This document shows, one piece after another, positions 7,877 to 21,601 of a stretch of 64,000 bases of DNA. The notes under the pieces were generated by a model, which searched no databases, was not told the DNA's origin, and saw only the letters and a list, made by a program, of their open reading frames with translations. The DNA is taken from assembly GCA_016199745.1 (NCBI GenBank), contig JACQFZ010000001.1, positions 1-64,000 of the forward strand. The letters are read 5' to 3'. The DNA is from Gammaproteobacteria bacterium (GTDB lineage Bacteria > Pseudomonadota > Gammaproteobacteria > Acidiferrobacterales > Sulfurifustaceae). The position numbers and the translations under genes were made by a program. Each line of letters begins with the position of its first letter. Position 1 is the stretch's first letter.

Positions 7877-10800
7877 TTGACGAAGCGTCCGTTACGCCAC
7901 GAGCAGCGCGCGGGAACCGGCTCCGCACCGAGCGGTAAATTGCGTTCGTTCGATTGGGCGCGATCACCGCTGGGTACGATCGAGCAGTGGCCGCCGGCGT
8001 TACGCGCAGCGGTCGATCTGTGCCTGAACACGCCGACGCCGGCGTTTGTTTATTGTCGGCAAGATCTGGTGATTCCAAACGACGCTTGTATCGGCGCTAT
8101 CGGCGGCAGCCGTACGACTGAGCCCGGCAGATCCGGCCGTGAGCTTTGGTCGAATCATTGGGACGCGGTCGAGCCGTTGGTTCTCGCCGTATTCGACACC
8201 GGCGAGGCGAAGTGCGCCGACAATGTGCAGCTGATCGTCGAGCGCGGCGGTTCGCTGGAAGATTGTTATTTCGCGTTATCGTCCACCCCTGTCATCGATG
8301 ATAGTGACGGCATCGTCGGCGTATTCGTGTTGCTGACCGAAAACGCCGATATCAAGACGGAACCGGCAGCCGCCGCCGGCGTTAGTACGCCGCATGTGCT
8401 CGATCGTGTGCTCGCCGGCATCGACGAAGCGTTCACGGTTTTCGATCGCGACTGGCGCCATACCTATATCAACGACAAGGCCGTGGCGATGGCCGGTATT
8501 CCGCGCGAACAATTGCTCGGCCGCAGCTTGTGGGACTCGTTTCCGCAAATCGTCGGCAGCGAATTTCATCAGCGCCTATTGGCGCTCATGGAGCAGCAAC
8601 AAAACGCGCGTTTCGATTACTACTCCGAGCTGCAGCAACGCTGGTTCGATGTGCGCGCTTATCCGTGGCCCGAAGGCGTAGCTTTGCTGGTGGTCGATAT
8701 CAGCGAGCGCAAGCAGGCCGAAGAGACGCAACGCGCCAACGAAGCGCAATTGCGCATTGTCAGCGACGCCATGCCGGCATTGATTTCTTACGTCGATAGC
8801 AATGGCCGCTATCGCTTTGCCAACCATTGTTACCACGATTGGTTCGGGCATACGCCCGAGCAAATCGTCGGTCGCCACTTGTCCGAGGTGCTGGGCGACG
8901 CCGTGTTCGCCGAAATTCGTCCGCACATGGAGCGGGTGCTTGCCGGCGAACGCGTGACCTACGACGCGTGCTTGCCGTATCGCCAAGGCGGAATGCGTGC
9001 GGTCCAGGCGAGCTACGTGCCCGATCGCGATGAGCGCGGGCGTGTGCGCGGCTTCTTTGCGTTGGTGCACGACATTAGCGAGCGTACGCGCGCCGAAGAG
9101 GCACTGCGCGAGAGTGAAGAGCGTTTCCGCCGGTTGGCCGATACCGCGCCGGTCATGATCTGGATGACCGACGAGCGTAAACGCTCGGTGTATTTCAACA
9201 AGCGTTGGCTCGAATTCATCGGCGAGTCGCACGAGCAAGCAATCGCCGGCGACTGGACCGCGCAAGTCCATCCCGCCGATCGACCGGTGCTCGCGCAATG
9301 CGTGCAGGCGTTCGATGCGCGTGCACCGTTCTCCATGGACTTTCGCATGCGCCGGCACGACGGTGCCTACCGCTGGTTCAACGATTACGCCGTTCCGCGC
9401 TACGATGCCGACGGTACCTTCCGCGGTTTCATCGGCACCATGGTCGACGTCACCGACCGCAAACAGATCGAAGACGAGCGCAGCCATGCGCTTGCCGCCG
9501 AGCGCGAAGCGCGTGCCGAAGCCGAGCTGCTGCGCGATCTTGGTAAGGTGCTGAACAGCGAGCTCGACATGCGCACGTTGCTGCAGCGTGTTACCGATAC
9601 CGCGACCGCCGCCATCGGCGCCGATCTCGGCGCGTTCTTTTATAACGCCGTCGACCAACAAGGCGAGGGTTATCGGCTATACGCAGTTGCCGGCATGCCG
9701 GCGGAGTCATTCGCGCAGTTGTCGTTACCGCGCGAGACGGCGCTGTTCGAGCCGACGCTCCATGACGAATCGATCGTACGCTGCGACGATGTAACTCAGG
9801 ATCCGCGGTTTGGTAAGAGCGCACCGCACTTCGGCACGCCGTCCGGGCATCCGCCGGTAAAAAGTTATCTGGCGGTACCGGTTAAATCACGCTCGGGCGA
9901 AGTACTGGGCGCATTGTTCTTCGGCCATCAGCAGCCGGCACGTTTTCAGGCGCGGCACGAGCGCACTGTCGCCGGCATTGCCGCGCAAGCGGCGATCGCG
10001 ATCGACAATGCCCGGCTGTTCGACGTCGTGCGCGAGCAGGCGGCACGCTGGCAAGCGACGCACGATCATGCGGCCGTCGGTATTTGCGAGTCGACGCTCG
10101 ACGGTCGCTTGATCGGTGTCAACGATATGTATTGCGCGATCCTCGGTTATAGCCGCGACGAGCTTTTGGACGGCATGCGTTTCCGTGAGCTCACGCATCC
10201 GGACGACGTCGCTATCGACGAAGGGCTGTTCGAGGATCTCAAGGCCGGCAAGATCAGCTCGTACAGTCTCGAAAAGCGCTATCGCCGTAAAGATGGCAGC
10301 TGGATTTGGATCAAGTTAACGGCGTCGTTAGTGCGCGATGCGCAGCAGCGACCGTTGTACGGCATCGGTGCAATCGAAGACGTCACCGAGCGTCGGCGTG
10401 CCGAAACTGTCATTACCGGCCAGAAGAAAGCGCTCGAGCAGATTGCCCGCGGCGAACCGTTGACGGCGGTACTGGAAACATTAGTCGATACCTTCGAGCA
10501 GCAATCGACGCTCGGTGCTATGGGCGCGATCCTGTTGCTCGACAATGCGCGCCGCATCTTGCGGCCGGTAGCGACCGGGCGCTTGCCGAAAGATTGGCTC
10601 AGCGTGCTTAGCGACATGCAGCTCGATGCCAACATCGGCGCGCTCGAGTACATCGATGGTGCGGAATCGGTCTTCGTCGCCGATATCGCCAGCGATCCGC
10701 ATTGGCAGCCGGCGCGTGTGGTCGCCGAGCAACTCGGTTTCCGCAATGTTTGGTCGATTCCGATTCATTCCTCGGGCCTCGATGTGTTCGGTGCGCTCAC

Positions 10801-13800
10801 GATTTACTATCGTGTGCCCAATCATCCGACCGCCGATGAGATGCGCTTTATCGACATCATTACCGATACTGCCGCCATCGCCATCGAGCGCTACGAAGAT
10901 GAGAAGTCGTTGCGATTGCAGGCGCAAGTACTGAGCCGCATCCACGATGCCGTCATCACCACCGATCGCGTCGGCCGTATTACCCGTTGGAACGAAGGCG
11001 CCGAACGCTTGTTCGGTTACGCCGCCGAAGAAGCCATCGGTCAGCACGCGTCGTTGTGTTATGCGTCCGACGATCGCAATACGTTTGCACAGCAAGTCGT
11101 TACGCCGTTGGCGCATGCCGGTCGGCACGAGCTGGTAGCGCGCTTACAGCGTCGCTCCGGCGACGTACTGTATGGGCACGTGTCGTTGTCGCTCATTCAT
11201 GACGAACGTGGCCGGCCGAGCGCGGCGGTCGCCTACATTCTCGATATGACGGCGCGTGTTACCGCCGAGCAGGAATTGAGCGCGCGCGTACGCCAGCAAG
11301 AAGCGGTGGCGCACTTGGGCGAAAACGCATTGGCCGGGTTTGCGCTGCAGGCGCTGATGGACGAAGCGGTGCAGCTGGTCACCGATACGCTATCGGTCGA
11401 CATGTGTAAGTTATTGGAGTTGTTGCCCGATCAGAAAACGTTGTTCCTGCGCGCCGGCGTTGGCTGGCAAGAAGGTCGTGTTGGCAAAACCGTCATCAGC
11501 GCCGGTCGCGAGTCGCACGCCGGCTACACGTTGTTGGCGGCCACCCCAGTTATTACCGCCGATTTGCCGAGCGAGACGCGCTTCAGCGACGCCGCGTTTT
11601 TGCTCGAGCACAACGTCGTTAGCGGTGCCAGCGTCATCGTGCAAGGCGACAACGAGCGGCCGTACGGCGTGTTCGGCGTTTTCAGCAAGCGTCCGCGCCA
11701 ATTCTCGACGCACGACATTAACTTTCTGCAATCGATTGCCAACGTCGTGGCGAACGCGATCCAGCGCAAACAGTTTGAAGAAAAGTTGAGTCAGGCGCGC
11801 GACGACCTCGAGCAGCGCGTTACCGAGCGTACCGCCGAACTGGCGCGCGCCAACCAGCAATTGCGCGACGAAATCGTCGATCGCATGGGCGTTGAAACCG
11901 CCTTGCGCGATTCGGAAGCGCAATACCGCATGCTGTTTGAACGTAATCCATTGTCGGCGTGGGTGTTTGACATCAACACGCGACAAATCTTAGCGGCCAA
12001 CGAGACTGCCGTTTGGCAATACGGTTACACACGCGAAGAATTTCTGCGCATGAGCATCGACGATCTGCATCCGTCGGAAGAGATGTCGCGCATGCTCGAT
12101 TACGCCGAACAGTTCGCGCCGGAGACGGCCTACATCGGCGTCTGGAAGCATCGCAAGCAAGACGAGACGATCATCGATGTCGAGATGTTCGTCTATGAAG
12201 TGTTGTTCCAGGGCCGTTGGGCGCGCTTGGTCTTGGCCAATGACATCACCGAGCGCCGTCGTGCCGAGCAAGAGTTCCGTTTGATCGAGCAGATCACGCG
12301 CGCTATCGGCGAGGCGCGCGACTACGAAGCGGCGCTGTACGCGGTGCTGCGGCAATTATGCGAGACCACCGGTTGGGTGTGGGGTGAAGTCTGGTTGCCC
12401 GGGTCCGATCGCGAGCACATGGTGTCGAGCCCGGTATGGTATTGCGCCGCCGATGGTCTCGACGAATTCCGGCATCCAACGCGCGAGCAAGAATCGGTCA
12501 GCGGCCAAGGCATCATCGGCCGTGCCTGGGTCGCTAAACATCCGATCTGGTTGTCCGATGTGACGATCGACGACGACTTCAGTCGCGCGCCGCAAGCACG
12601 TGCCGTCGGCGTGCGCGCCGGTATCGCTTTCCCGGTGTTAGTCGAGCGCGAGATTGTGGCATTGCTAGCGTTCTTCCTGCGCGAACCGCGGCGTGAGGAC
12701 GAGCGCTTGGTCAAGCTGGTATCGACGGTCGCCGCGCAGCTCGGTCTTGCCATCGAGCGCAAACGCGCTGAGGAGTTGCTGCAGAAAAGCGAAATGCAAT
12801 TGTCCGAGGCGCAACATCTAGCGCACCTCGGTAGCTGGGAATGGGATGTCGCCAGCGGTGCGCTCAAATGGTCCGACGAGTTGTACCGCATCTATGGTAT
12901 CGATCCCGGCACGCCGCTGCAGTTCAACGATTATGTGGCACGCCTGCATCCGCACGACCATCGGCGCGTGCAGGATATTATTGCCAGCGCTGTGCGCGAG
13001 CGGACACCGTTCACACTGGAAGAGCGCATCGTTCGCCAAAATGGCGGCGAGATACGCCATTTGTTGACCCAGGGCGCATTGGTCACCGATAGCCGCGGTG
13101 AAGTGGCGCGCATGGTCGGCGTCTGTCTCGATATCACCGAACGCAAGCGCGTCGAGGAACGACTGCGCGACTACACGCATCGTTTGCAAAATTTATCGCA
13201 GCGATTGCTCGAGGCGCAGGAAACTGAGCGCCGGCGCATTGCCCGCGAGTTGCATGACCAGATCGGTCAGGATCTTTCCGTTATCAAAATTAATTTGCAA
13301 TCGTTGAAGCGCTTACCGCCGCGGACCATGGTGGCGCAGGTCGATGAAACGATTCGTGTGGTCGAAGGTGTGCTCGCGACCGCGCGCAACTTGTCGCTTG
13401 AGCTGCGCCCGTCGATGCTTGATGATCTTGGGTTGGCGGCGGCGCTGCGTTGGTATCTCGACCGGCAGGCACAGCGCGGCGGCTTCAAGTTGCAATTCGT
13501 CGCGGATAATGTCGACGGCCGCATGGTGCCGACGATCGAGACGGCGTGTTTCCGCTTGGCACAAGAAGCGTTGACCAACATTCTGCGGCACGCAAAGGCA
13601 CAGCATGTACAAGTGAATCTGCGATTGTCTGGTGAAGAGTTGGAAATGCGTATCATCGACGACGGCAGCGGCTTCGATGTAGAAGCGGCGCGTGCCCGTG
13701 CCGCTAGCGGTGACAGCTTCGGATTGCTCGGTATGGAAGAACGCGCCTTGCTTGCTGGCGGCAGTCTAGAAATAATATCGACACCCGGGCACAGTACTAC

Positions 13801-13843
13801 CGTTATCGCTCGGTTCCCTTTAACAACTACGCTAACGCTATGA
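7877..13843 (+). CDS. giant multi-PAS/GAF sensor histidine kinase (NarL/DegS-type), 1988 aa
   Basis: Soluble-looking kinase with a very long sensory array and no obvious membrane helix. I read these modules in order, with approximate residues: an N-terminal PAS-like part with FDWARSPLGTIEQWP (15-160), PAS (175-280), PAS (290-400), PAS (410-530), GAF (554-710), PAS (724-845), GAF (852-1010), PAS (1018-1130), GAF (1144-1300), a coiled coil (1300-1340), PAS (1349-1460), GAF (1465-1625) and PAS (1640-1755). A HisKA_3 dimerisation helix follows with the phosphoacceptor in RRRIARELHDQIGQDL (His1793), then a HATPase domain ending GSFLG-type (SFGLLGMEERALL). The TTG start at 7877 follows GAAGGA at 7864-7869. 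It overlaps its response regulator by four bases. The ligands are not predictable. Confidence 0.9.
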   Translation: MTKRPLRHEQRAGTGSAPSGKLRSFDWARSPLGTIEQWPPALRAAVDLCLNTPTPAFVYCRQDLVIPNDACIGAIGGSRTTEPGRSGRELWSNHWDAVEPLVLAVFDTGEAKCADNVQLIVERGGSLEDCYFALSSTPVIDDSDGIVGVFVLLTENADIKTEPAAAAGVSTPHVLDRVLAGIDEAFTVFDRDWRHTYINDKAVAMAGIPREQLLGRSLWDSFPQIVGSEFHQRLLALMEQQQNARFDYYSELQQRWFDVRAYPWPEGVALLVVDISERKQAEETQRANEAQLRIVSDAMPALISYVDSNGRYRFANHCYHDWFGHTPEQIVGRHLSEVLGDAVFAEIRPHMERVLAGERVTYDACLPYRQGGMRAVQASYVPDRDERGRVRGFFALVHDISERTRAEEALRESEERFRRLADTAPVMIWMTDERKRSVYFNKRWLEFIGESHEQAIAGDWTAQVHPADRPVLAQCVQAFDARAPFSMDFRMRRHDGAYRWFNDYAVPRYDADGTFRGFIGTMVDVTDRKQIEDERSHALAAEREARAEAELLRDLGKVLNSELDMRTLLQRVTDTATAAIGADLGAFFYNAVDQQGEGYRLYAVAGMPAESFAQLSLPRETALFEPTLHDESIVRCDDVTQDPRFGKSAPHFGTPSGHPPVKSYLAVPVKSRSGEVLGALFFGHQQPARFQARHERTVAGIAAQAAIAIDNARLFDVVREQAARWQATHDHAAVGICESTLDGRLIGVNDMYCAILGYSRDELLDGMRFRELTHPDDVAIDEGLFEDLKAGKISSYSLEKRYRRKDGSWIWIKLTASLVRDAQQRPLYGIGAIEDVTERRRAETVITGQKKALEQIARGEPLTAVLETLVDTFEQQSTLGAMGAILLLDNARRILRPVATGRLPKDWLSVLSDMQLDANIGALEYIDGAESVFVADIASDPHWQPARVVAEQLGFRNVWSIPIHSSGLDVFGALTIYYRVPNHPTADEMRFIDIITDTAAIAIERYEDEKSLRLQAQVLSRIHDAVITTDRVGRITRWNEGAERLFGYAAEEAIGQHASLCYASDDRNTFAQQVVTPLAHAGRHELVARLQRRSGDVLYGHVSLSLIHDERGRPSAAVAYILDMTARVTAEQELSARVRQQEAVAHLGENALAGFALQALMDEAVQLVTDTLSVDMCKLLELLPDQKTLFLRAGVGWQEGRVGKTVISAGRESHAGYTLLAATPVITADLPSETRFSDAAFLLEHNVVSGASVIVQGDNERPYGVFGVFSKRPRQFSTHDINFLQSIANVVANAIQRKQFEEKLSQARDDLEQRVTERTAELARANQQLRDEIVDRMGVETALRDSEAQYRMLFERNPLSAWVFDINTRQILAANETAVWQYGYTREEFLRMSIDDLHPSEEMSRMLDYAEQFAPETAYIGVWKHRKQDETIIDVEMFVYEVLFQGRWARLVLANDITERRRAEQEFRLIEQITRAIGEARDYEAALYAVLRQLCETTGWVWGEVWLPGSDREHMVSSPVWYCAADGLDEFRHPTREQESVSGQGIIGRAWVAKHPIWLSDVTIDDDFSRAPQARAVGVRAGIAFPVLVEREIVALLAFFLREPRREDERLVKLVSTVAAQLGLAIERKRAEELLQKSEMQLSEAQHLAHLGSWEWDVASGALKWSDELYRIYGIDPGTPLQFNDYVARLHPHDHRRVQDIIASAVRERTPFTLEERIVRQNGGEIRHLLTQGALVTDSRGEVARMVGVCLDITERKRVEERLRDYTHRLQNLSQRLLEAQETERRRIARELHDQIGQDLSVIKINLQSLKRLPPRTMVAQVDETIRVVEGVLATARNLSLELRPSMLDDLGLAAALRWYLDRQAQRGGFKLQFVADNVDGRMVPTIETACFRLAQEALTNILRHAKAQHVQVNLRLSGEELEMRIIDDGSGFDVEAARARAASGDSFGLLGMEERALLAGGSLEIISTPGHSTTVIARFPLTTTLTL

Positions 13844-14493
13844 ACGCCATTCGTGTACTACTCGCCGATGATCACAGTCTCTTTCGCGCCGGCATCCAAG
13901 CGCTGCTCATGCAGATCGATGGCGTGCAAGTTGTCGGCGAAGCCGACACCGGCCGCAAAGCCTTGGAAATGGCGCGGGCCCATACACCCGATGTGGTGTT
14001 AATGGACATCGCAATGCCCGAGATGAATGGGCTCGATACCGCGGCCCGTCTTACCAAGGAATTTCCTGGGGTTCGCGTCATTATGTTGTCGATGCATGCC
14101 GGTGAAGAATACGTCATGCAGGCACTGCGTGCCGGTGCCTCGGGCTATCTGTTGAAGGATGCCGCGACCTCCGAGCTCGAATTAGCGGTGCGCGCGGTCG
14201 CGCGCGGTGAGACGTATTTGACGCCGACGATCTCCAAGCGCGTGATTGATGATTATTTGATGCGCACGACCGGCACGAGCAATTCGACTGATCAGCTGAC
14301 CAAACGGCAACGTGAAATCTTGCAGTTGATCGCTAAGGGCTATACCTCGAAAGAAATGGCGCAGATGCTGAATTTGAGCCCGAAGACGATCGAAACGCAT
14401 CGTACGCAGTTGATGAAGCAGCTTGATATTCACGATGTAGCGGGGTTAGTGCGATACGCTATTCGTGTGGGCCTCGTTACCCTGGACGCGTAG
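13840..14493 (+). CDS. NarL/LuxR-family response regulator
   Basis: Two-domain transcription regulator of 217 residues. The receiver has acidic residues D10-D11, the phosphoacceptor D56 in VVLMDIAMPEMNG and the conserved lysine in SGYLLKDA near 107. The C-terminal HTH_LuxR domain (about 150-210) includes LTKRQREILQLIAKGYTSKEMA and LSPKTIETHRTQLMKQL. The ATG at 13840 overlaps the TGA of the giant kinase by four bases, so the two form a cognate pair. A short hairpin (arms 14509-14514 and 14518-14523) lies just downstream but lacks a T run. Target genes are unknown. Confidence 0.95.
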   Translation: MNAIRVLLADDHSLFRAGIQALLMQIDGVQVVGEADTGRKALEMARAHTPDVVLMDIAMPEMNGLDTAARLTKEFPGVRVIMLSMHAGEEYVMQALRAGASGYLLKDAATSELELAVRAVARGETYLTPTISKRVIDDYLMRTTGTSNSTDQLTKRQREILQLIAKGYTSKEMAQMLNLSPKTIETHRTQLMKQLDIHDVAGLVRYAIRVGLVTLDA

Positions 14494-14702: not shown

Positions 14703-15080
14703 ATGCGTGTTTTGTTGGCAGATGACAGTCCGAGTTTTACCTCGGCGGCGATTCGGTTTCTATCGTTGATACCCGAGTGTGAAGTGGTGGGTCGGGCCCG
14801 GACGGGGCGCGAGGCGATTGAGCAAGTTAACCGCCTGCATCCGGATCTGGTGCTGATGGACGTTCGGATGCCGGAGATGGACGGACTGGAGGCGACGCAG
14901 CGGATCAAGCGTGGAATCGAGCCGCCGCAAGTCATCGTCATGACGCTGCATAACCATGTAGCCTATCGGCGTCGGGCGGAACAAGCAGGTGCCGATGGGT
15001 TTGTGGGCAAGGAAGAGTTCGGTACGGCATCGCTTGAATTGCTTACCGATTTTGACAACAGGGGAGGAAAGCCAAGTTGA
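14703..15080 (+). CDS. stand-alone receiver (CheY-like) protein
   Basis: Single receiver domain of 125 residues with acidic pocket D7-D8, phosphoacceptor D53 in LVLMDVRMPEMDG, switch threonine in VIVMTLHNH and a lysine in DGFVGKEEF. The closest relatives in sequence feel are NarL-type receivers, but no output domain follows: the protein ends in DNRGGKPS. ATG at 14703 is a good start. It lies 60 bases before the TonB-dependent receptor gene on the same strand and may be the first gene of that operon, or a phosphate sink for the kinases on either side. Confidence 0.88.
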   Translation: MRVLLADDSPSFTSAAIRFLSLIPECEVVGRARTGREAIEQVNRLHPDLVLMDVRMPEMDGLEATQRIKRGIEPPQVIVMTLHNHVAYRRRAEQAGADGFVGKEEFGTASLELLTDFDNRGGKPS

Positions 15081-15140
15081 TCTTCATCGTCGAGCGCGGT
15101 CGGAGTGCACTCGCAAGTGCGTGAAGCGCTGGCCTCGTCA

Positions 15141-17027
15141 ATGACGTTACTCACTTATTGCCGCTCGGCATTGCTCGGGATGCTGGGGTTGGGCCTAGTG
15201 CTGACAGCGACGCCGTCGGCGGCGGAAGGGCTCGATATCAAGCGTCTGACGCTTGAGCAGCTCATGGAGATCAGCGTCGTCACGCCGTCGCGCCGGGCGG
15301 AGTCGTATCAGTCATCGCCATCGGCGTTGTACGTGTTGACCGGTGATGACATACAACGCGCGCACGTGACGTCGTTGCCCGAAGCATTGCGGCTGATTCC
15401 CGGTGTGCAGGTAGCACGCCTCGACGCCAGCAAATGGTCTGTCAGTATTCGCGGTTTCGGTTCGCGTACCGCCAACAAGTTGTTGGTGCTATTCGACGGT
15501 CGCTCGGTGTACGACCCACTTTTTTCCGGTGTGTTCTGGGAATCGCGCGACGTGATGCTCGAAGACGTCGAACGCATTGAGGTTATTCGTGGCCCGGGCG
15601 GCGCATTGTGGCAAACGAACGCCGTCAATGGTGTGATCAACATCATTACCAAGCGGGCCAGCGATACCCAGGGAACGTTGTGGACCGCCGGCGCGGGTAC
15701 GGAGGAGCGCGCGTTCGGCGCCGTGCGTTATGGCTGGCAACCGCAATCGGATCAATACGCACGCGTGTATGCAAAGACCACCGAGCGCGACACCGGTGCG
15801 GCGGCGAGTGGGGCGCACGATGATATGCGGCTTGTGCGCACCGGTTATCGTTGGGATTGGGTCGCCGATGCGCGTGACGACATGCAAGTGTCGGGCGATT
15901 TTTACAATGGCGACTTCGGCGAAGCGGATGCCGCCACGGGTCAGGTGCAGGATGTCAATCATCAGGGCGCCAACTTGCTCGCTCGTTGGCAACGAAAATT
16001 ATCGGCGACCGAAAATTTTCGCCTGCAATTTTTTTACGATTACTTCGAGTTCGACAATCTGCAGCTTGGCGAGACGCGCAATACCTACGACTTCGAATTT
16101 CAGCACGGCCTGACGCCGTTGCCGGACCATCAACTGGTCTGGGGCTTCGGTCATCGGCGTACGCGCGACGATATTCGCAATGGTCCAGTGATCAGCATCG
16201 ATCCGAGTGCGCGTGCCGATGTAACGACCAATCTATTCGTGCAGGACACGATCGCGCTGGTGCCGGACCGTTGGCAGCTCACGCTCGGCACTAAAGTCGA
16301 ACGAAATAATTATTCCGGCAGCGAGTGGCAACCGAATGTGCGGCTAGCGTGGACCGTCAATGCCAATCAAACGGCATGGGCGGCAGCGTCGCGCGCCGTG
16401 CGGGTGCCGTCGCGTTTGGAGCGCGATTTGGTATTCGCTGGCAGTCGATTGGGCGACGACTTCGATCCGGAACGGGTCTACGCTTACGAGCTTGGTTTCC
16501 GGCATTTGTTGTCGCCGCGGATTTGGTATGACGTCGCCGCTTTTTATAACGACTATCGTGCATTGCTGACGCTCGAGCAGGATTTCATGTTCGAGAACCG
16601 CATGAACGGCCATACCTACGGTGTCGAGCTGGCGACCCGCTGGCAGTTGACGCCGGCGTGGCGTCTGGATGCTGGCTACACCTATCTCAGAATGAATCTC
16701 GAGGTCGACGCCGACAGCATCGACGTCACGCGGCCGGAGATCATGGAAGGTTCCGACCCGCAGCAGCAGATTACGCTGCGCTCAGCCTACGACTACTCGC
16801 GCACTTGGCAATTCGACGCGACCTTGTATCACTGCGATGAATTACCAACGTTCGATGTACCGGCTTATACGAAACTCGATGTCGGCGTTACCTGGTTAAT
16901 GCGCCCACGCTGGCAAGTGTCGTTGGTTGGGCAAGATCTGCTCGACTCGCACCATCCGGAAAGCGCCGGTACATCGACCACGGAAGTGCAAAGGGGGTTT
17001 TATGGAAAACTGCGTGTGGAATTTTGA
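15141..17027 (+). CDS. TonB-dependent outer-membrane receptor
   Basis: Outer-membrane beta-barrel receptor with a plug domain. The ATG chosen gives a classic signal peptide (SALLGMLGLGLVLTATPSAA), although a GTG 36 bases upstream is possible. A TonB-box-like segment ISVVTPSRR follows at about residues 45-53. The plug contains LPEALRLIPGVQV, SIRGFGSRTANKLLVLFDGR and the RIEVIRGPGGALW...NGVINIITK signature. The barrel ends with GKLRVEF, with the terminal Phe expected for BAM recognition. At 628 residues it is slightly small for a receptor. Its position directly before a YfiR-like gene and a CHASE8-type kinase suggests a sensory rather than purely uptake role. The substrate is unknown. Confidence 0.9.
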   Translation: MTLLTYCRSALLGMLGLGLVLTATPSAAEGLDIKRLTLEQLMEISVVTPSRRAESYQSSPSALYVLTGDDIQRAHVTSLPEALRLIPGVQVARLDASKWSVSIRGFGSRTANKLLVLFDGRSVYDPLFSGVFWESRDVMLEDVERIEVIRGPGGALWQTNAVNGVINIITKRASDTQGTLWTAGAGTEERAFGAVRYGWQPQSDQYARVYAKTTERDTGAAASGAHDDMRLVRTGYRWDWVADARDDMQVSGDFYNGDFGEADAATGQVQDVNHQGANLLARWQRKLSATENFRLQFFYDYFEFDNLQLGETRNTYDFEFQHGLTPLPDHQLVWGFGHRRTRDDIRNGPVISIDPSARADVTTNLFVQDTIALVPDRWQLTLGTKVERNNYSGSEWQPNVRLAWTVNANQTAWAAASRAVRVPSRLERDLVFAGSRLGDDFDPERVYAYELGFRHLLSPRIWYDVAAFYNDYRALLTLEQDFMFENRMNGHTYGVELATRWQLTPAWRLDAGYTYLRMNLEVDADSIDVTRPEIMEGSDPQQQITLRSAYDYSRTWQFDATLYHCDELPTFDVPAYTKLDVGVTWLMRPRWQVSLVGQDLLDSHHPESAGTSTTEVQRGFYGKLRVEF

Positions 17028-17030
17028 GAA

Positions 17031-17606
17031 ATGGCGCGATGTAGGTGGCGCGGATTAGGCGACGCTCTGAGTATGGAACTACGGCGCTGCAAACGAGTCT
17101 TCCGTTGGTCGATGGCCCTATTGCTGTACTTGGGTGCGGCATCGGCCGCCGACGCGCCGTTGGAGTATCAGGTCAAGGCGTCTTATCTCTATAACTTTAT
17201 GCGATTCATCGATTGGCCCGATGACGCCTTCGCTGCCGATGGCGCGTTTAATTTGTGCGTATCGGATCTGTCGCGCTTCGGTGCTGCATTGGATGCGCTT
17301 GCCGGCGAGCAGATCGACGGACATACGATCCATGTGCGCAGCGTCGATAGCCCGGCGGCGGTGCGCGCGACTCATTGCCATTTATTGTTTGTTAGCGCGG
17401 CCAAGGAAATCGTTTGGATGCCGTTGGCGCCGGAACGCGGCTTGCTCACCGTCGGCGAAAGTCGCGAGTTCACGCAACACGGCGGCATTATTAATTTGCT
17501 GGAAGTGCAAGGGCGTATTCGTTTTCAAATTAATCATCCCGTTGCCGAGCGCGCCGGATTGGTCATCAGCTCGCGCTTGCTGAATCTAGCGATGACACAG
17601 CCATGA
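17031..17606 (+). CDS. YfiR-like (DUF4154) periplasmic protein
   Basis: Secreted periplasmic protein of 191 residues. A signal peptide is evident (SMALLLYLGAASAADA), reached from ATG 17031 or from a second ATG at 17073. The mature part has the family hallmarks YQVKASYLYNFMRFIDWP near the start, paired cysteines in FNLCVSDL and THCHLLFV, and the C-terminal LEVQGRIRFQINHPVAERAGLVISSRLLNLA. In the known YfiBNR system YfiR binds the CHASE8 sensor of the cyclase YfiN and silences it. Here the partner directly downstream (four-base overlap) is a CHASE8-like histidine kinase, so an analogous gating role is inferred, not shown. Confidence 0.87.
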   Translation: MARCRWRGLGDALSMELRRCKRVFRWSMALLLYLGAASAADAPLEYQVKASYLYNFMRFIDWPDDAFAADGAFNLCVSDLSRFGAALDALAGEQIDGHTIHVRSVDSPAAVRATHCHLLFVSAAKEIVWMPLAPERGLLTVGESREFTQHGGIINLLEVQGRIRFQINHPVAERAGLVISSRLLNLAMTQP

Positions 17607-20266
17607 AATTATTAGACCGCGCACTGCGTAATGTGTCGATCCGCTGGAAGGTGGTCGCCATTATGCTTAATGTGGCTGCTATCAGCCTGCTGCTCGCCGG
17701 CGCCGGTTTGTTGTGGCACACGCGTCTTGCCTTCGAGCGGCAAACCCAGGAAGAGATGCAACTGTTGGCCGATGTCATCGGCGTTAACAGCACGGCGGCA
17801 CTGACATTCAACGATCACCAAGCGGCGTCGGAGACGTTGGTCGCGTTGCGCAGCGACCCGCGCGTACTCGCCGGTGGGCTGTATGACGAGCACGGGCAAT
17901 TGTTTGCGTACTACGTGCGCCCGGGTGCCGACGTGCGTTTGCCGAACGCTAGTCCGGCCGAGGGCGAGCTAACGCTAGGTCACGAGCAAGCGTCGCTGGC
18001 GCGCGCGGTTTATTTGAAAGACCGACCGATTGGTCGTGTTTACCTGGCCATCGACATGGGACAGTGGACCGGCACGTTATGGGGTTTCATCGGCATCTTG
18101 GCGACGTTGTTCGCCGCCGTGCTCAGTGTCGGTTTTTTGGTCGCTGTCTGGTTGCAGCGTGTCGTTACCGAACCGATCGCCGAGCTTGCACAGCTCATGC
18201 GCCGCGTCGGCCGCGAGCGTGATCTGCAGGTGCGTGCAGTCAAGCGCGGCAACGACGAGCTCGGTGTGTTGGCCGATGGCTTCAACGACATGCTCGATGA
18301 AATCGGCAAACGTCGCGACGAGCTTGAGCAGGCACGCGACGAGCTGAAGCAGCGAGTCGCGGCGCTCGACAGCGAGATGATCGAGCGCCGCCGTATCGAA
18401 GTCGAGCTGCGTTATAGCCGCGAGCAGATCGCCAACTTCATCGAGAACGCCAACATTGGACTTCATTGGGTCGGCCCGGACGGCATCATTCAATGGGCTA
18501 ATCGTTACGAATTGCAGATGCTAGGCTACAGCGCCGAAGAATATATCGGTCGACCCATCGCCGATTTTCATGGCAATCGTTCGGTAATCGACGACATGCT
18601 CGCGCGGCTCGCACGCCACGAGGTCATCGAAGAGTGCGAGGCCCAGCTGCGCCGTAAAGACGGATCGATCTGCGACGTGCTCATCAGCTCCAGCGTCTAT
18701 TGGGAAGACGACAACTTCGTGCACACCCGCGGGTTTACGCGTGACATTACCGGGCGTAAGCGGGCCGAGGCGGCCGTGCGTCAGAGCGAAGAGCGTTATC
18801 GCATGCTGGTAGCGGCGACAACGTCAGTAGTATTTAGTCTCGATGCGCGGGGGCGGGTACTTGACCGGTCGCCGTCGTGGGAAGCCTATACCGGGCAGAA
18901 GTGGGAAGACTACGCCGACGTCGGCGGCTTCAGCGCGGCGCACCCCGACGATCGCGAAACGGCGAAGCTGCGTTGGCGCCATGCGCTTCATGCGTGCGAT
19001 GTCTTCGAGATGGAGACGCGCTTTTGGCATGCACGCACGCAGAGTTATCGCTTTTGTACGCTGCGTATGGTGCCGCTGCATCAGACCGATGGCACGTTGC
19101 GCGAGTGGGTCGGTACGGTTACCGACGTCGACGACCGCAAGCGTGCCGAGGAACAGTTCCGCATGGCGGTCGAAGCGGCGCCGAACAGCATGATCATGGT
19201 CGATGAAAACGGTCACATCGTTCTGACCAATCGTCAGACCGAGACGCTGTTCGGTTATGCCCGCGAAGAACTGATCGGCCAGCCACTCGATCTGCTCGTG
19301 CCCGATCTCGTGCGCGGTTTGCCGCCGGACCAACGCGATGCGTTCTTCGTCGACCCGCCGTTACAGGCCGCCGGCCCCGGCCGTGAGCTGCACGGCCGTC
19401 GCAAAGACGGCCGGCAAATTCCGATCGAAATCGGCCTTAATCCGTTCACTAGCAGCGACGGCCAATTTTGCTTGGCGGCAATCACCGATATTACCGAGCG
19501 CAAACGCGCCGAGCAGGAACTGCGACGTTACACTGACGAGTTGCAACGCAGTAACCGTGAGCTCGCGCAATTCGCGTACGTCGCTTCGCACGATCTGCAA
19601 GAACCGCTGCGCGCCATTTCCGGATGCGTGCAGTTGTTGCAGCAGCGCTATCAGCAAAAGCTCGACGGTCGCGCCGATGAGCTGATCGAGCACGCCGTCA
19701 GCGGTGCAGTGCGCATGCAAGCCTTGATCAACGATCTCTTGAGCTACTCGCGCGTCGGCACCCGTGGCAAGCCGTTCGAGCCGTGCGACGTGAGCCAGCC
19801 GCTCGATGAAGCGCTGGCGAACTTGGCGTTTACCATCAAAGAATCCGGCGCCCGAGTGACGTATGACGAGATGCCGGTGGTTAGCGCCGATCCGACACAG
19901 CTGACGCAGTTGTTTCAGAACCTTATCGGTAACGCCCTCAAGTTCCGCGGCAAAGAGTCGCCGTATATTCATGTCGGTACCGAGCGCAAGAGCGGCGGTC
20001 ACATTATTTATGTTCGTGATAACGGCATTGGCATCGAGCCGCAATACTTCGAGCGCATCTTCGGCGTGTTTCAACGATTGCATGGACGCAATCAGTTTCC
20101 CGGCAACGGCATCGGTTTAGCGATCTGTCGCAAGATCGTCGAACGTCACTACGGCCGCATTTGGGTCGAGTCGGTCGCCGGCCGGGGCGCCACTTTTTAC
20201 TTCACACTTCCTGGAGGGGGCGTGCAGAATGAACAGTCATCCGAGCGTTACAGCCATCAGCATTAA
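17603..20266 (+). CDS. CHASE8-like sensor histidine kinase (HAMP-PAS-PAS-PAS-HisKA-HATPase)
   Basis: Membrane kinase of 887 residues. A first transmembrane helix lies at about 15-37 ([20 protein letters not shown]) and a second at about 153-178. Between them is a periplasmic domain with [19 protein letters not shown], the signature I associate with CHASE8 sensors. HAMP and a coiled coil follow (180-260), then three PAS/PAC modules (about 275-395, 400-520, 525-650). The HisKA helix has the phosphoacceptor His663 in [17 protein letters not shown], a phytochrome-kinase type, and HATPase ends with [16 protein letters not shown]. It overlaps yfiR-like by four bases and the next receiver gene by 38. 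Output is expected through the two receiver proteins downstream. Confidence 0.9.
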
Positions 20267-20714
20267 TACGGGTATGTCGAACGCATTCAAAGCACAAATA
20301 TTGTTGGTCGAAGATAGCCCCACCGATGCCATGATGGTGCGGGAAGTCTTGAGCCTCGCCAAAGTACCGAGCGAGTTGTATGTCGTCGAAGATGGAATGG
20401 AGGCGTTGCAGTTTTTGCGGCGGCAAGGGCCCTACGGCACCGCACCGCGGCCGGATTTGATCCTGCTCGATCTACAATTGCCGCGAAAGACCGGCCAAGA
20501 AGTTTTAATGGATATTAAAACCGACGACGAGCTGCGAACGATTCCGGTCGTCGTATTGACCAGCTCGCACGAGGAGCGCGACGTGCTCGGCGCCTATCGG
20601 GCATACGCTAATTCCTATGTGACTAAGCCGGTGGATTACGCGCAGTTTGCCGATACCATACGGCTGATTGAGCGCTTTTGGTTGGAAGTGGCGACACGTG
20701 TCGACAAGGGATAA
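20229..20714 (+). CDS. Rcp1-like single-domain response regulator
   Basis: Receiver of 161 residues of the Rcp1 type that usually pairs with phytochrome-like kinases. It has [17 protein letters not shown], the phosphoacceptor in [18 protein letters not shown] (Asp81) and the distinctive [26 protein letters not shown]. The start at 20229 has a strong GGAGGGGG site at 20213-20220 lying inside the kinase gene; an in-frame ATG at 20274 would give a 15-residue shorter product. The preceding kinase has exactly the HisKA type such receivers serve. The stop overlaps the next ATG (TAATG). Confidence 0.92.
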
Positions 20715-21601
20715 TGCGCGACAAACCGATCGACATCTTGCTCGTCGAGGACAGCCCCACTGACGCCTTGCTGTTGCGCGAATCGTTGTCCGACGAACCC
20801 AACGTAACGTTCCGCACGGCGCATGTGGAATCGTTGGCGGAAGCATTGCGTTGCTTGCAGGATCAACGTTTCGATCTTATTTTGCTCGATCTCGGTTTGC
20901 CGGATAGCCAAGGCCTCGAAACTTTCGTGCGCGTACACGAGCACGTGCCGCAGATTCCGATCGTCGTGCTCACCGGTCTCGATGACGACGTGCTGGCGCT
21001 GAAGGCGGTGCAAGAGGGTGCGCAGGATTTTCTCACCAAAGGCCGGTTCGATCGTTACTGGTTGGTGCGCAATATCCGCCACGCGCTCGAGCGCCACCAG
21101 ATGTATCTCGAAGTTCACGCGTTGTCGCTGACCGACGGTTTGACCGGTCTTTATAACCGTCGCGGTTTCATCACGCTCGCCGAGCAACAATTAAAAGTCG
21201 CGCGCCACACCGAGCGCGGATTGATTCTGCTGTACGCCGATCTCGATCACTTGAAGTACATCAACGACACCTACGGACATCAGGAAGGCGATCGCGCTTT
21301 GGTGCAAGCCGCCGATATCCTCGAACGTACGTTCCGTGCGTCGGATATCCTCGGCCGCATCGGCGGCGACGAATTTGCCGCGCTCGCCGTGCGTGGCAAT
21401 GACGAGACCGTGCAGGCGATCCCGCAGCGGTTGCAAAAGATGATTCAAGAACGCAACGCTACCGGCAAATGGCCGTACGAGTTATCTATAAGTATCGGGG
21501 CGATGCACTTCGACCCGAATATCGCGCCCTCGGTCGAAGAAATGATGACCAAAGCCGACCGCGCCATGTACGAACAGAAGCGCCGTAAGCGCCGGCATTA
21601 G
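20714..21601 (+). CDS. receiver-GGDEF diguanylate cyclase
   Basis: Response regulator of 295 residues whose output domain makes cyclic di-GMP. The receiver (1-120) has [12 protein letters not shown], phosphoacceptor Asp59 in LILLDLGLPDSQG and LTGLDDDVLALKA. The GGDEF domain starts at LTDGLTGLYNRRGF, carries the metal/substrate helix YADLDHLKYINDTYGH and the intact catalytic RIGGDEFAAL. An RxxD product-inhibition site (RASD) lies five residues before GGDEF. ATG 20714 overlaps the previous TAA (TAATG), which is better than the upstream alternatives. It is the last gene of the receptor-kinase operon and the probable output. Confidence 0.94.
   Translation: MRDKPIDILLVEDSPTDALLLRESLSDEPNVTFRTAHVESLAEALRCLQDQRFDLILLDLGLPDSQGLETFVRVHEHVPQIPIVVLTGLDDDVLALKAVQEGAQDFLTKGRFDRYWLVRNIRHALERHQMYLEVHALSLTDGLTGLYNRRGFITLAEQQLKVARHTERGLILLYADLDHLKYINDTYGHQEGDRALVQAADILERTFRASDILGRIGGDEFAALAVRGNDETVQAIPQRLQKMIQERNATGKWPYELSISIGAMHFDPNIAPSVEEMMTKADRAMYEQKRRKRRH

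Follow-up and report, generated by a model that had tools for sequence, protein, structure and literature searches.

The closest described relative of the locus examined here is the YfiBNR system of Pseudomonas aeruginosa and Escherichia coli (TpbB/DgcN). In the passages covered of Malone 2012 (PMC3375315), the site for YfiR on YfiN is assigned to an AAVVF motif with an exposed phenylalanine, the site for YfiN on YfiR to hydrophobic C-terminal residues, and Yfi homologues are described with kinase, HPT, MCP or GGDEF-EAL outputs. The exchange of the cyclase for a kinase on a YfiR-YfiN core has been known since 2012. The locus lies at positions 14703 to 21601 of a 64,000-nucleotide stretch (the window) of contig JACQFZ010000001.1 (assembly GCA_016199745.1), from a soil gammaproteobacterium of the family Sulfurifustaceae. 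It shares with YfiBNR a DUF4154 protein, a CHASE8 domain with an AAxxF motif and tight gene packing, and on balance we take it to be a trans-envelope signaling operon built on a YfiR-CHASE8 core. Its features are as follows.

15105..17027, plus strand: TonB-dependent receptor (TBDR), starting at GTG 15105 or ATG 15141 (Pfam Plug, 7.6e-21; barrel, 1.8e-31)
15231..15296, plus strand: N-terminal segment LDIKRLTLEQLMEISVVTPSRR of the TBDR, between signal peptide and plug (small hidden Markov model, mini-HMM)
17031..17606, plus strand: YfiR-like periplasmic protein, DUF4154 domain at residues 46-187 (Pfam, 8.4e-40)
17603..20266, plus strand: sensor kinase of 887 amino acids, CHASE8-HAMP-three PAS-HisKA-HATPase (Pfam CHASE8, 3.2e-18)
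17795..17809, plus strand: AALTF, counterpart of the YfiN AAVVF motif (motif from the covered passages of PMC3375315)
20229..20714, plus strand: stand-alone receiver, 161 amino acids from ATG 20229, alternative start 20274 (Response_reg, 3.6e-18)
20714..21601, plus strand: receiver-GGDEF diguanylate cyclase, ATG at 20714 (GGDEF, 3.5e-39; Response_reg, 1.7e-20)
14703..15080, plus strand: lone receiver of 125 amino acids, a probable extra response regulator (Response_reg, 5e-25)

An earlier, sequence-only reading of the window had named these genes, and their content, order and coordinates are all as it gave them, every gene being on the plus strand and the domains confirmed by Pfam. The junctions were confirmed as well: a 3-base gap between TBDR and YfiR, a 4-base overlap of YfiR and kinase, a 38-base overlap of kinase and receiver, and TAATG between receiver and cyclase. 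The gap and the longer overlap hinge on the start codons chosen, since another in-frame ATG of YfiR lies at 17073, ahead of a signal-peptide-like stretch, and the in-frame ATG at 20274 of the stand-alone receiver would give a 7-base gap in place of the overlap. The kinase has the active-site motif SHDLQEP at residue 662, the receivers keep their aspartates, and the cyclase carries both the GGDEF active-site motif and the RASD inhibitory-site motif; the stand-alone receiver would likely be the first phospho-acceptor. That receiver had been called Rcp1-type: the receiver domain stands, Pfam giving Response_reg alone, and its likeness to Rcp1 of Cph1/Rcp1-type pairs is presumed here. In the Pfam scan the TBDR matched the Plug and barrel families alone, without the STN signaling domain of FecA-type transducers.

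The combination of YfiR, CHASE8 and TBDR was followed in three differently selected samples, using domain models built from the loci of sample A. Sample A, selected by similarity to CHASE8-HAMP, held 88 regions: 80 fetched regions (the 78 best places outside the window's genome and two lower ones, in G381 and G262), the window, and seven regions from its own genome and family. A CHASE8 protein was obtained from 85 of them; L013, L080 and L082 had no CHASE8 match and were dropped. Sample B drew on named genomes and was selected by similarity to YfiR (80 loci with 81 YfiR genes), and sample C by TBDR similarity within the window's class (38 regions with 39 strong receptors, excluding a weak second receptor, L281, of 99 bits and without YfiR). 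CHASE8 stands beside YfiR for 62 of 65 YfiR genes in sample A and 75 of 81 in sample B, where a TBDR is near 54 of the 81. All three genes occur together in 47/65 and 49/81 cases, so that a lack of co-occurrence in other genomes, which would have spoken against the sequence-only reading, can be dismissed for these three core genes. The internal control in sample A gave a same-strand TBDR within 6 kb at 48 of 62 CHASE8 loci with YfiR versus 1 of 23 without it. Seen from the receptor (sample C), YfiR is in the locus for 30 of the 39 strong TBDRs, 28 times within 1 kb, and seven of the nine lacking it come from a single family, f130. Across 70 kinase operons, distance correlations were 0.77 for CHASE8-YfiR, 0.45 for TBDR-YfiR and 0.39 for kinase domain-YfiR; with the kinase domain held constant the TBDR-YfiR value was 0.37, which 0 of 500 permutations reached. 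The co-occurrence, the internal control and the distance correlations are evidence that the TBDR belongs to the set.

The set is widespread. Sample B includes Gammaproteobacteria, Alphaproteobacteria, several delta lineages, Verrucomicrobia, Planctomycetota, Bacteroidetes, Bdellovibrionales, Armatimonadetes and an acidobacterial metagenome-assembled genome. Its distribution is patchy all the same, with receptors of this type found in 45 of 299 genomes at an E value of 1e-45 or better and in 34 of 369 at 1e-90 or better. No relative of the window YfiR protein was found in viral contigs. One contig labelled as a Halobacteria archaeon carries TBDR-YfiR-CHASE8-GGDEF-EAL (L151); it is probably mis-binned, because archaea lack such an outer membrane.

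The contact proposed for YfiR and YfiN has counterparts here. Phe69 in the AALTF motif of the window kinase corresponds to the proposed YfiR-binding phenylalanine of YfiN, and YfiN of E. coli K-12 has EAAVVF at the same place. This residue is found in 62/62 YfiR-linked CHASE8-like domains versus 7/23 unlinked ones, and in 160 of 162 pairs of a pooled, non-redundant set, which pools all three samples with some additional loci, the loci shared by samples A and B having been merged, as were five near-identical loci (167 to 162). The sequence-only reading had left room for a periplasmic domain other than CHASE8; the domain is CHASE8 (3.2e-18), with the motif phenylalanine present. Among the seven unlinked domains with the residue, L062 and L077 have YfiR in the locus in a different order; for L020, L046, L065, L072 and L073 no YfiR was found in the locus, and genomes G299 and G360 hold one elsewhere. 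Some members of the unlinked set may not be true CHASE8 domains, L046 being below the Pfam cut-off. On the YfiR side, by reading of the alignment, Phe162 and Leu183 of P. aeruginosa correspond to Phe165 and Leu186 of the window protein; the first place holds F in 115 of the 162 pairs and L in 24, the second L in 107 and V in 33.

The AlphaFold2 models are confident, with a predicted local distance difference test score of 95.0 for YfiR and 94.4 for CHASE8-HAMP, and in the latter Phe69 comes immediately after the first long helix (13-68). With the YfiR model, Foldseek returned YfiR crystal structures, the best match being P. aeruginosa YfiR (4yn9, E value 4.7e-7), and substrate-binding proteins at ranks 16 to 22. 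Thus a DUF4154 protein with the YfiR fold is found by Pfam, by profile match and by AlphaFold2 with Foldseek. The sensor model matched PAS-like sensor domains, among others those of WalK and CitA and a LapD-type periplasmic domain. By sequence, a search of solved structures with the single window YfiR found nothing and a 62-sequence profile did match, while CHASE8 profiles matched NarQ and HAMP structures alone, within the HAMP part. In locus L228 (5042-7636, minus strand) an 864-amino-acid fusion joins DUF4154, a long coiled-coil-like stretch, HisKA-HATPase and a receiver, with a hydrophobic segment by reading of the sequence and an adjoining receiver-HD gene; here YfiR appears to be the periplasmic input part of a kinase. 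A double YfiR domain in a single frame was seen next to the CHASE8 gene in L162, L164 and L176.

Outputs on this core vary. The 162 pairs comprise 113 kinases, 37 GGDEF proteins and 12 left unassigned, and 121 have a same-strand TBDR within 4 kb, a figure inflated by the selection of sample C. Of the 113 kinase systems, 29 have a same-strand receiver-GGDEF/EAL gene no more than 6 kb away, and sample C shows such an output at 10 of 19 kinase-type loci. In one of these, L277, it is fused: directly after TBDR and YfiR, a gene at 8293-13287 (plus strand) encodes 1664 amino acids with CHASE8, HisKA, HATPase, receivers, Hpt, GGDEF and EAL (Pfam). Ten Marinobacter loci of sample B have the order YfiR-kinase-receiver-(receiver-GGDEF-EAL). 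Spirosoma utsteinense (L109) carries a receptor-YfiR-kinase set, and Methylophilus (L153) the form with GGDEF-EAL coupled directly. On a tree of YfiR plus CHASE8, with FastTree support alone and several long branches of unsure place, the GGDEF state takes 14 changes, of which starred branches force at least 7. Outputs have been exchanged repeatedly on the YfiR-CHASE8 core, and the tree gives no direction of change. The sequence-only reading had the cyclase replaced by a phosphorelay: the recurrent kinase output, the frequent nearby receiver-GGDEF/EAL genes and the L277 fusion speak for a probable phosphorelay, while the direction implied by "replaced" goes beyond a tree that cannot order the two forms.

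Other outputs and irregular loci were seen alongside. L152 has HisKA_3 and LuxR-type regulators as output. Receiver-containing genes of 499-536 amino acids lie near the kinase-type sets of L029, L030, L036 and L037, and the two that were scanned, L029 and L036, have a Guanylate_cyc domain, so cyclic AMP or cyclic GMP may be a further output of kinase-type sets. In Marinobacter salarius R9SW1 (L123, 9537-11500) the CHASE8 kinase and receiver are broken into several short frames beside an intact YfiR, through either decay or sequence error. CHASE8-like PAS kinases that lack YfiR occur in loci L078, L081, L084, L090 and L091; near each of them is a receiver-GGDEF gene (about 320 amino acids), with a further gene of about 190 amino acids directly after it.

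Taken together, we consider it rather probable that the signal runs from receptor to YfiR to CHASE8 kinase to receivers to cyclic di-GMP (c-di-GMP). As is thought for YfiN, YfiR would bind the kinase at its CHASE8 domain and lock it in one signaling state, and the outer-membrane receptor would change the availability of YfiR. The more likely route is an imported small ligand that fills the YfiR pocket, direct binding of YfiR by the receptor being less likely. The freed kinase would then phosphorylate the stand-alone receiver, the receiver of the GGDEF protein, or both, which would shift c-di-GMP synthesis. The receptor would thereby take the role of YfiB in YfiBNR, and the phosphorelay would substitute for direct coupling to GGDEF. 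Ligand delivery is made more likely by the likeness to substrate-binding proteins, the L228 fusion and published small-molecule binding: in the covered parts of PMC4887326, the pocket of P. aeruginosa YfiR that accepts Phe57 of YfiB also binds vitamin B6 and tryptophan.

Several observations weigh against this proposal. A conserved neighborhood is no proof of signal flow, and the Fisher tests of association ignore phylogeny. Among the 23 unlinked CHASE8-like domains, 10 belong to one family (f15), and the two with YfiR in another order, L062 and L077, are counted as unlinked. The TBDR-YfiR correlation barely exceeds that of kinase domain and YfiR. The receptor is not obligatory, because no same-strand TBDR adjoins either the second YfiR-CHASE8 kinase of the window's genome, in L011, or any of the ten Marinobacter loci. 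Nor does the core always lead to c-di-GMP: for 37 of 48 YfiR-linked kinases in sample A and 32 of 47 in sample B there is no same-strand c-di-GMP gene within 5.5 kb, and L029 and L036 carry a receiver-guanylate/adenylate-type (class III) cyclase instead. Because of these counts, c-di-GMP is one output among several, and the wiring of the window is one branch.

A liganded receptor might instead capture YfiR at the outer membrane through its N-terminal segment or plug, with no imported ligand. The TBDR segment at 15231..15296 is a candidate YfiR contact or extended TonB box. A strict N-terminal pattern was found in 15 of 99 linked TBDRs and a looser one in 69 of 95 versus 4 of 22 controls, and a mini-HMM built from one half of the linked TBDRs and scored on the other at 5 bits recovered 48/48 held-out receptors versus 0/22 controls. 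Moreover, in the covered parts of PMC4655355, YfiB takes YfiR through a conserved surface. The segment also passes in 9 of 14 other TBDRs from the same neighborhoods and in receptors of L209, L210, L212 and L216 that have no adjacent YfiR in genomes possessing one. Against docking, G122 and G212 have TBDRs with the segment and gave no DUF4154 match anywhere in the genome, and the same holds, more weakly at 10.9 bits, for G279. The last observation, which also counts against the link of receptor and YfiR as a whole, weakens the docking case, because the segment occurs where the genome shows no YfiR; the motif was dropped as proof of docking and kept as a lead. In addition, L055, L056 and L066 have a different beta-barrel of the PF13557 type upstream of YfiR where the TBDR stands elsewhere (290-351 amino acids; above the cut-off in L056 and L066, just below it in L055), probably an outer-membrane barrel replacing the TBDR. 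Locus L047 has a 356-amino-acid protein without a Pfam match in that place. We regard docking as rather unlikely.

It is improbable that the receptor is a mere neighbor, co-expressed as cargo, with YfiR itself sensing the envelope or redox state. Such a view would fit the 14 of 62 YfiR-linked CHASE8 loci of sample A with no TBDR within 6 kb, and C76 and C116 of the window YfiR, which by reading of the alignment match Cys71 and Cys110 of the P. aeruginosa protein, a pair that reportedly opens and closes as the redox state changes. It sits poorly with the 48/62 versus 1/23 distribution of TBDRs and with the partial TBDR-YfiR correlation of 0.37. We would likewise give little credence to a kinase that bypasses the neighboring cyclase and acts mainly on the lone receivers or on the NarL-type protein encoded upstream. 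The region does contain such a regulator and two stand-alone receivers, and many kinase-type loci lack a nearby c-di-GMP gene, but the receiver and receiver-GGDEF genes come straight after the kinase, and the association with receiver-GGDEF/EAL is repeated and, in L277, fused. Chance packing or a local oddity is ruled out, because the YfiR-CHASE8-TBDR set recurs in three differently selected samples.

The receptor-to-c-di-GMP proposal can also be viewed against relatives of the window. Of 60 genomes searched, six have DUF4154; the window's is one of them and has two copies. The second, in L011, has YfiR-CHASE8 kinase-receiver followed by a receiver-GGDEF-EAL gene, with no TBDR in the 19-kb region taken. 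Directly upstream of the operon (window 7877-14493) lie a 1988-amino-acid PAS/GAF kinase and a NarL-type regulator. L015, from another genus of the same family (G004), keeps the window's gene order: kinase/NarL pair, lone receiver (56% identity to that at 14703..15080), TBDR, YfiR, CHASE8-PAS-kinase, receiver, receiver-GGDEF, OmpH and GGDEF-EAL. Leaving out the receiver-GGDEF pair, eight of nine gene pairs are 49-68% identical and the NarL-type pair 89%. L012 (G001, of the window's genus; the same locus as L098) has its parts reordered, a receiver-GGDEF-EAL gene lying upstream of TBDR-YfiR-CHASE8 kinase-receiver. L014, L016 and L017 are TBDR-YfiR-CHASE8-GGDEF-EAL, and L013 has a YfiR gene without CHASE8. 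Outside the family, the closest row is L289: TBDR-YfiR-CHASE8-PAS-kinase-receiver-(receiver-GAF-PAS-GGDEF-EAL). The full five-gene plan was noted in two of the examined loci, L015 and L289, without a systematic count.

To our knowledge, the input upstream of YfiR and the way in which outer-membrane receptors without a signaling domain might signal are both open questions, and a recurrent TBDR-YfiR-CHASE8 set with exchanged outputs makes both testable with defined genes. On this proposal, a compound that is imported or bound at the surface would set c-di-GMP by way of a kinase. Tentatively, and with some reserve, we suggest that TBDRs may signal in a second, widespread way, in which a YfiR-like protein carries the receptor state to exchangeable CHASE8 proteins (kinases and GGDEF-EAL enzymes) without STN or anti-sigma factors, and many lineages wire the kinase branch back to c-di-GMP enzymes through receivers.

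Parts of the set are already known to annotators, because NCBI has models for its three core genes. These NCBIfam entries, NF053590 (TOL_0244 TBDR), NF053591 (TOL_0243 YfiR-like) and NF053592 (YfiR-associated kinase), name no mechanism. The window TBDR scores over the NF053590 cut-off (661.9 bits; cut-off, 645), YfiR just under that of NF053591 (119.7 versus 125 bits, hmmscan), and the kinase 193.3 versus 194 bits for NF053592 by hmmscan and 197.5 bits in the genome search. The family of the TBDR is named for TOL_0244 of Thalassolituus oleivorans, which, in the covered parts of PMC6304351, is up sevenfold on n-C28 alkane versus Tween 80 and is compared with OmpS, a sensor of alkanes; YfiR is absent from the main text of that paper. 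OmpS of Alcanivorax dieselolei as a member of the set is a lead only.

Compared with YfiBNR, in which the CHASE8 protein carries GGDEF and YfiB is present, the window has HisKA-HATPase in the CHASE8 protein, and a TBDR precedes yfiR; no YfiB-like or OmpA-type domain was found among the 10 window genes scanned with Pfam, the rest of the genome not having been searched for YfiB. It agrees with the homologues of Malone 2012, in which YfiR is paired with a sensor kinase that bears the periplasmic domain of YfiN and yfiB is usually absent. The passages covered of PMC3375315 say nothing of a route back to c-di-GMP by way of receivers, and "TonB" is absent from the main texts of that paper, PMC4655355 and PMC4887326; no description of a TBDR-YfiR link was found in the open-access literature covered, papers with both "YfiR" and "TonB" lying outside it. 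Overall, the set is a well-supported variant of a known module, for which the wiring first proposed from the sequence is plausible. New here are the receptor as the probable input of the YfiR-CHASE8 core and the phosphorelay to a c-di-GMP enzyme as its probable output.

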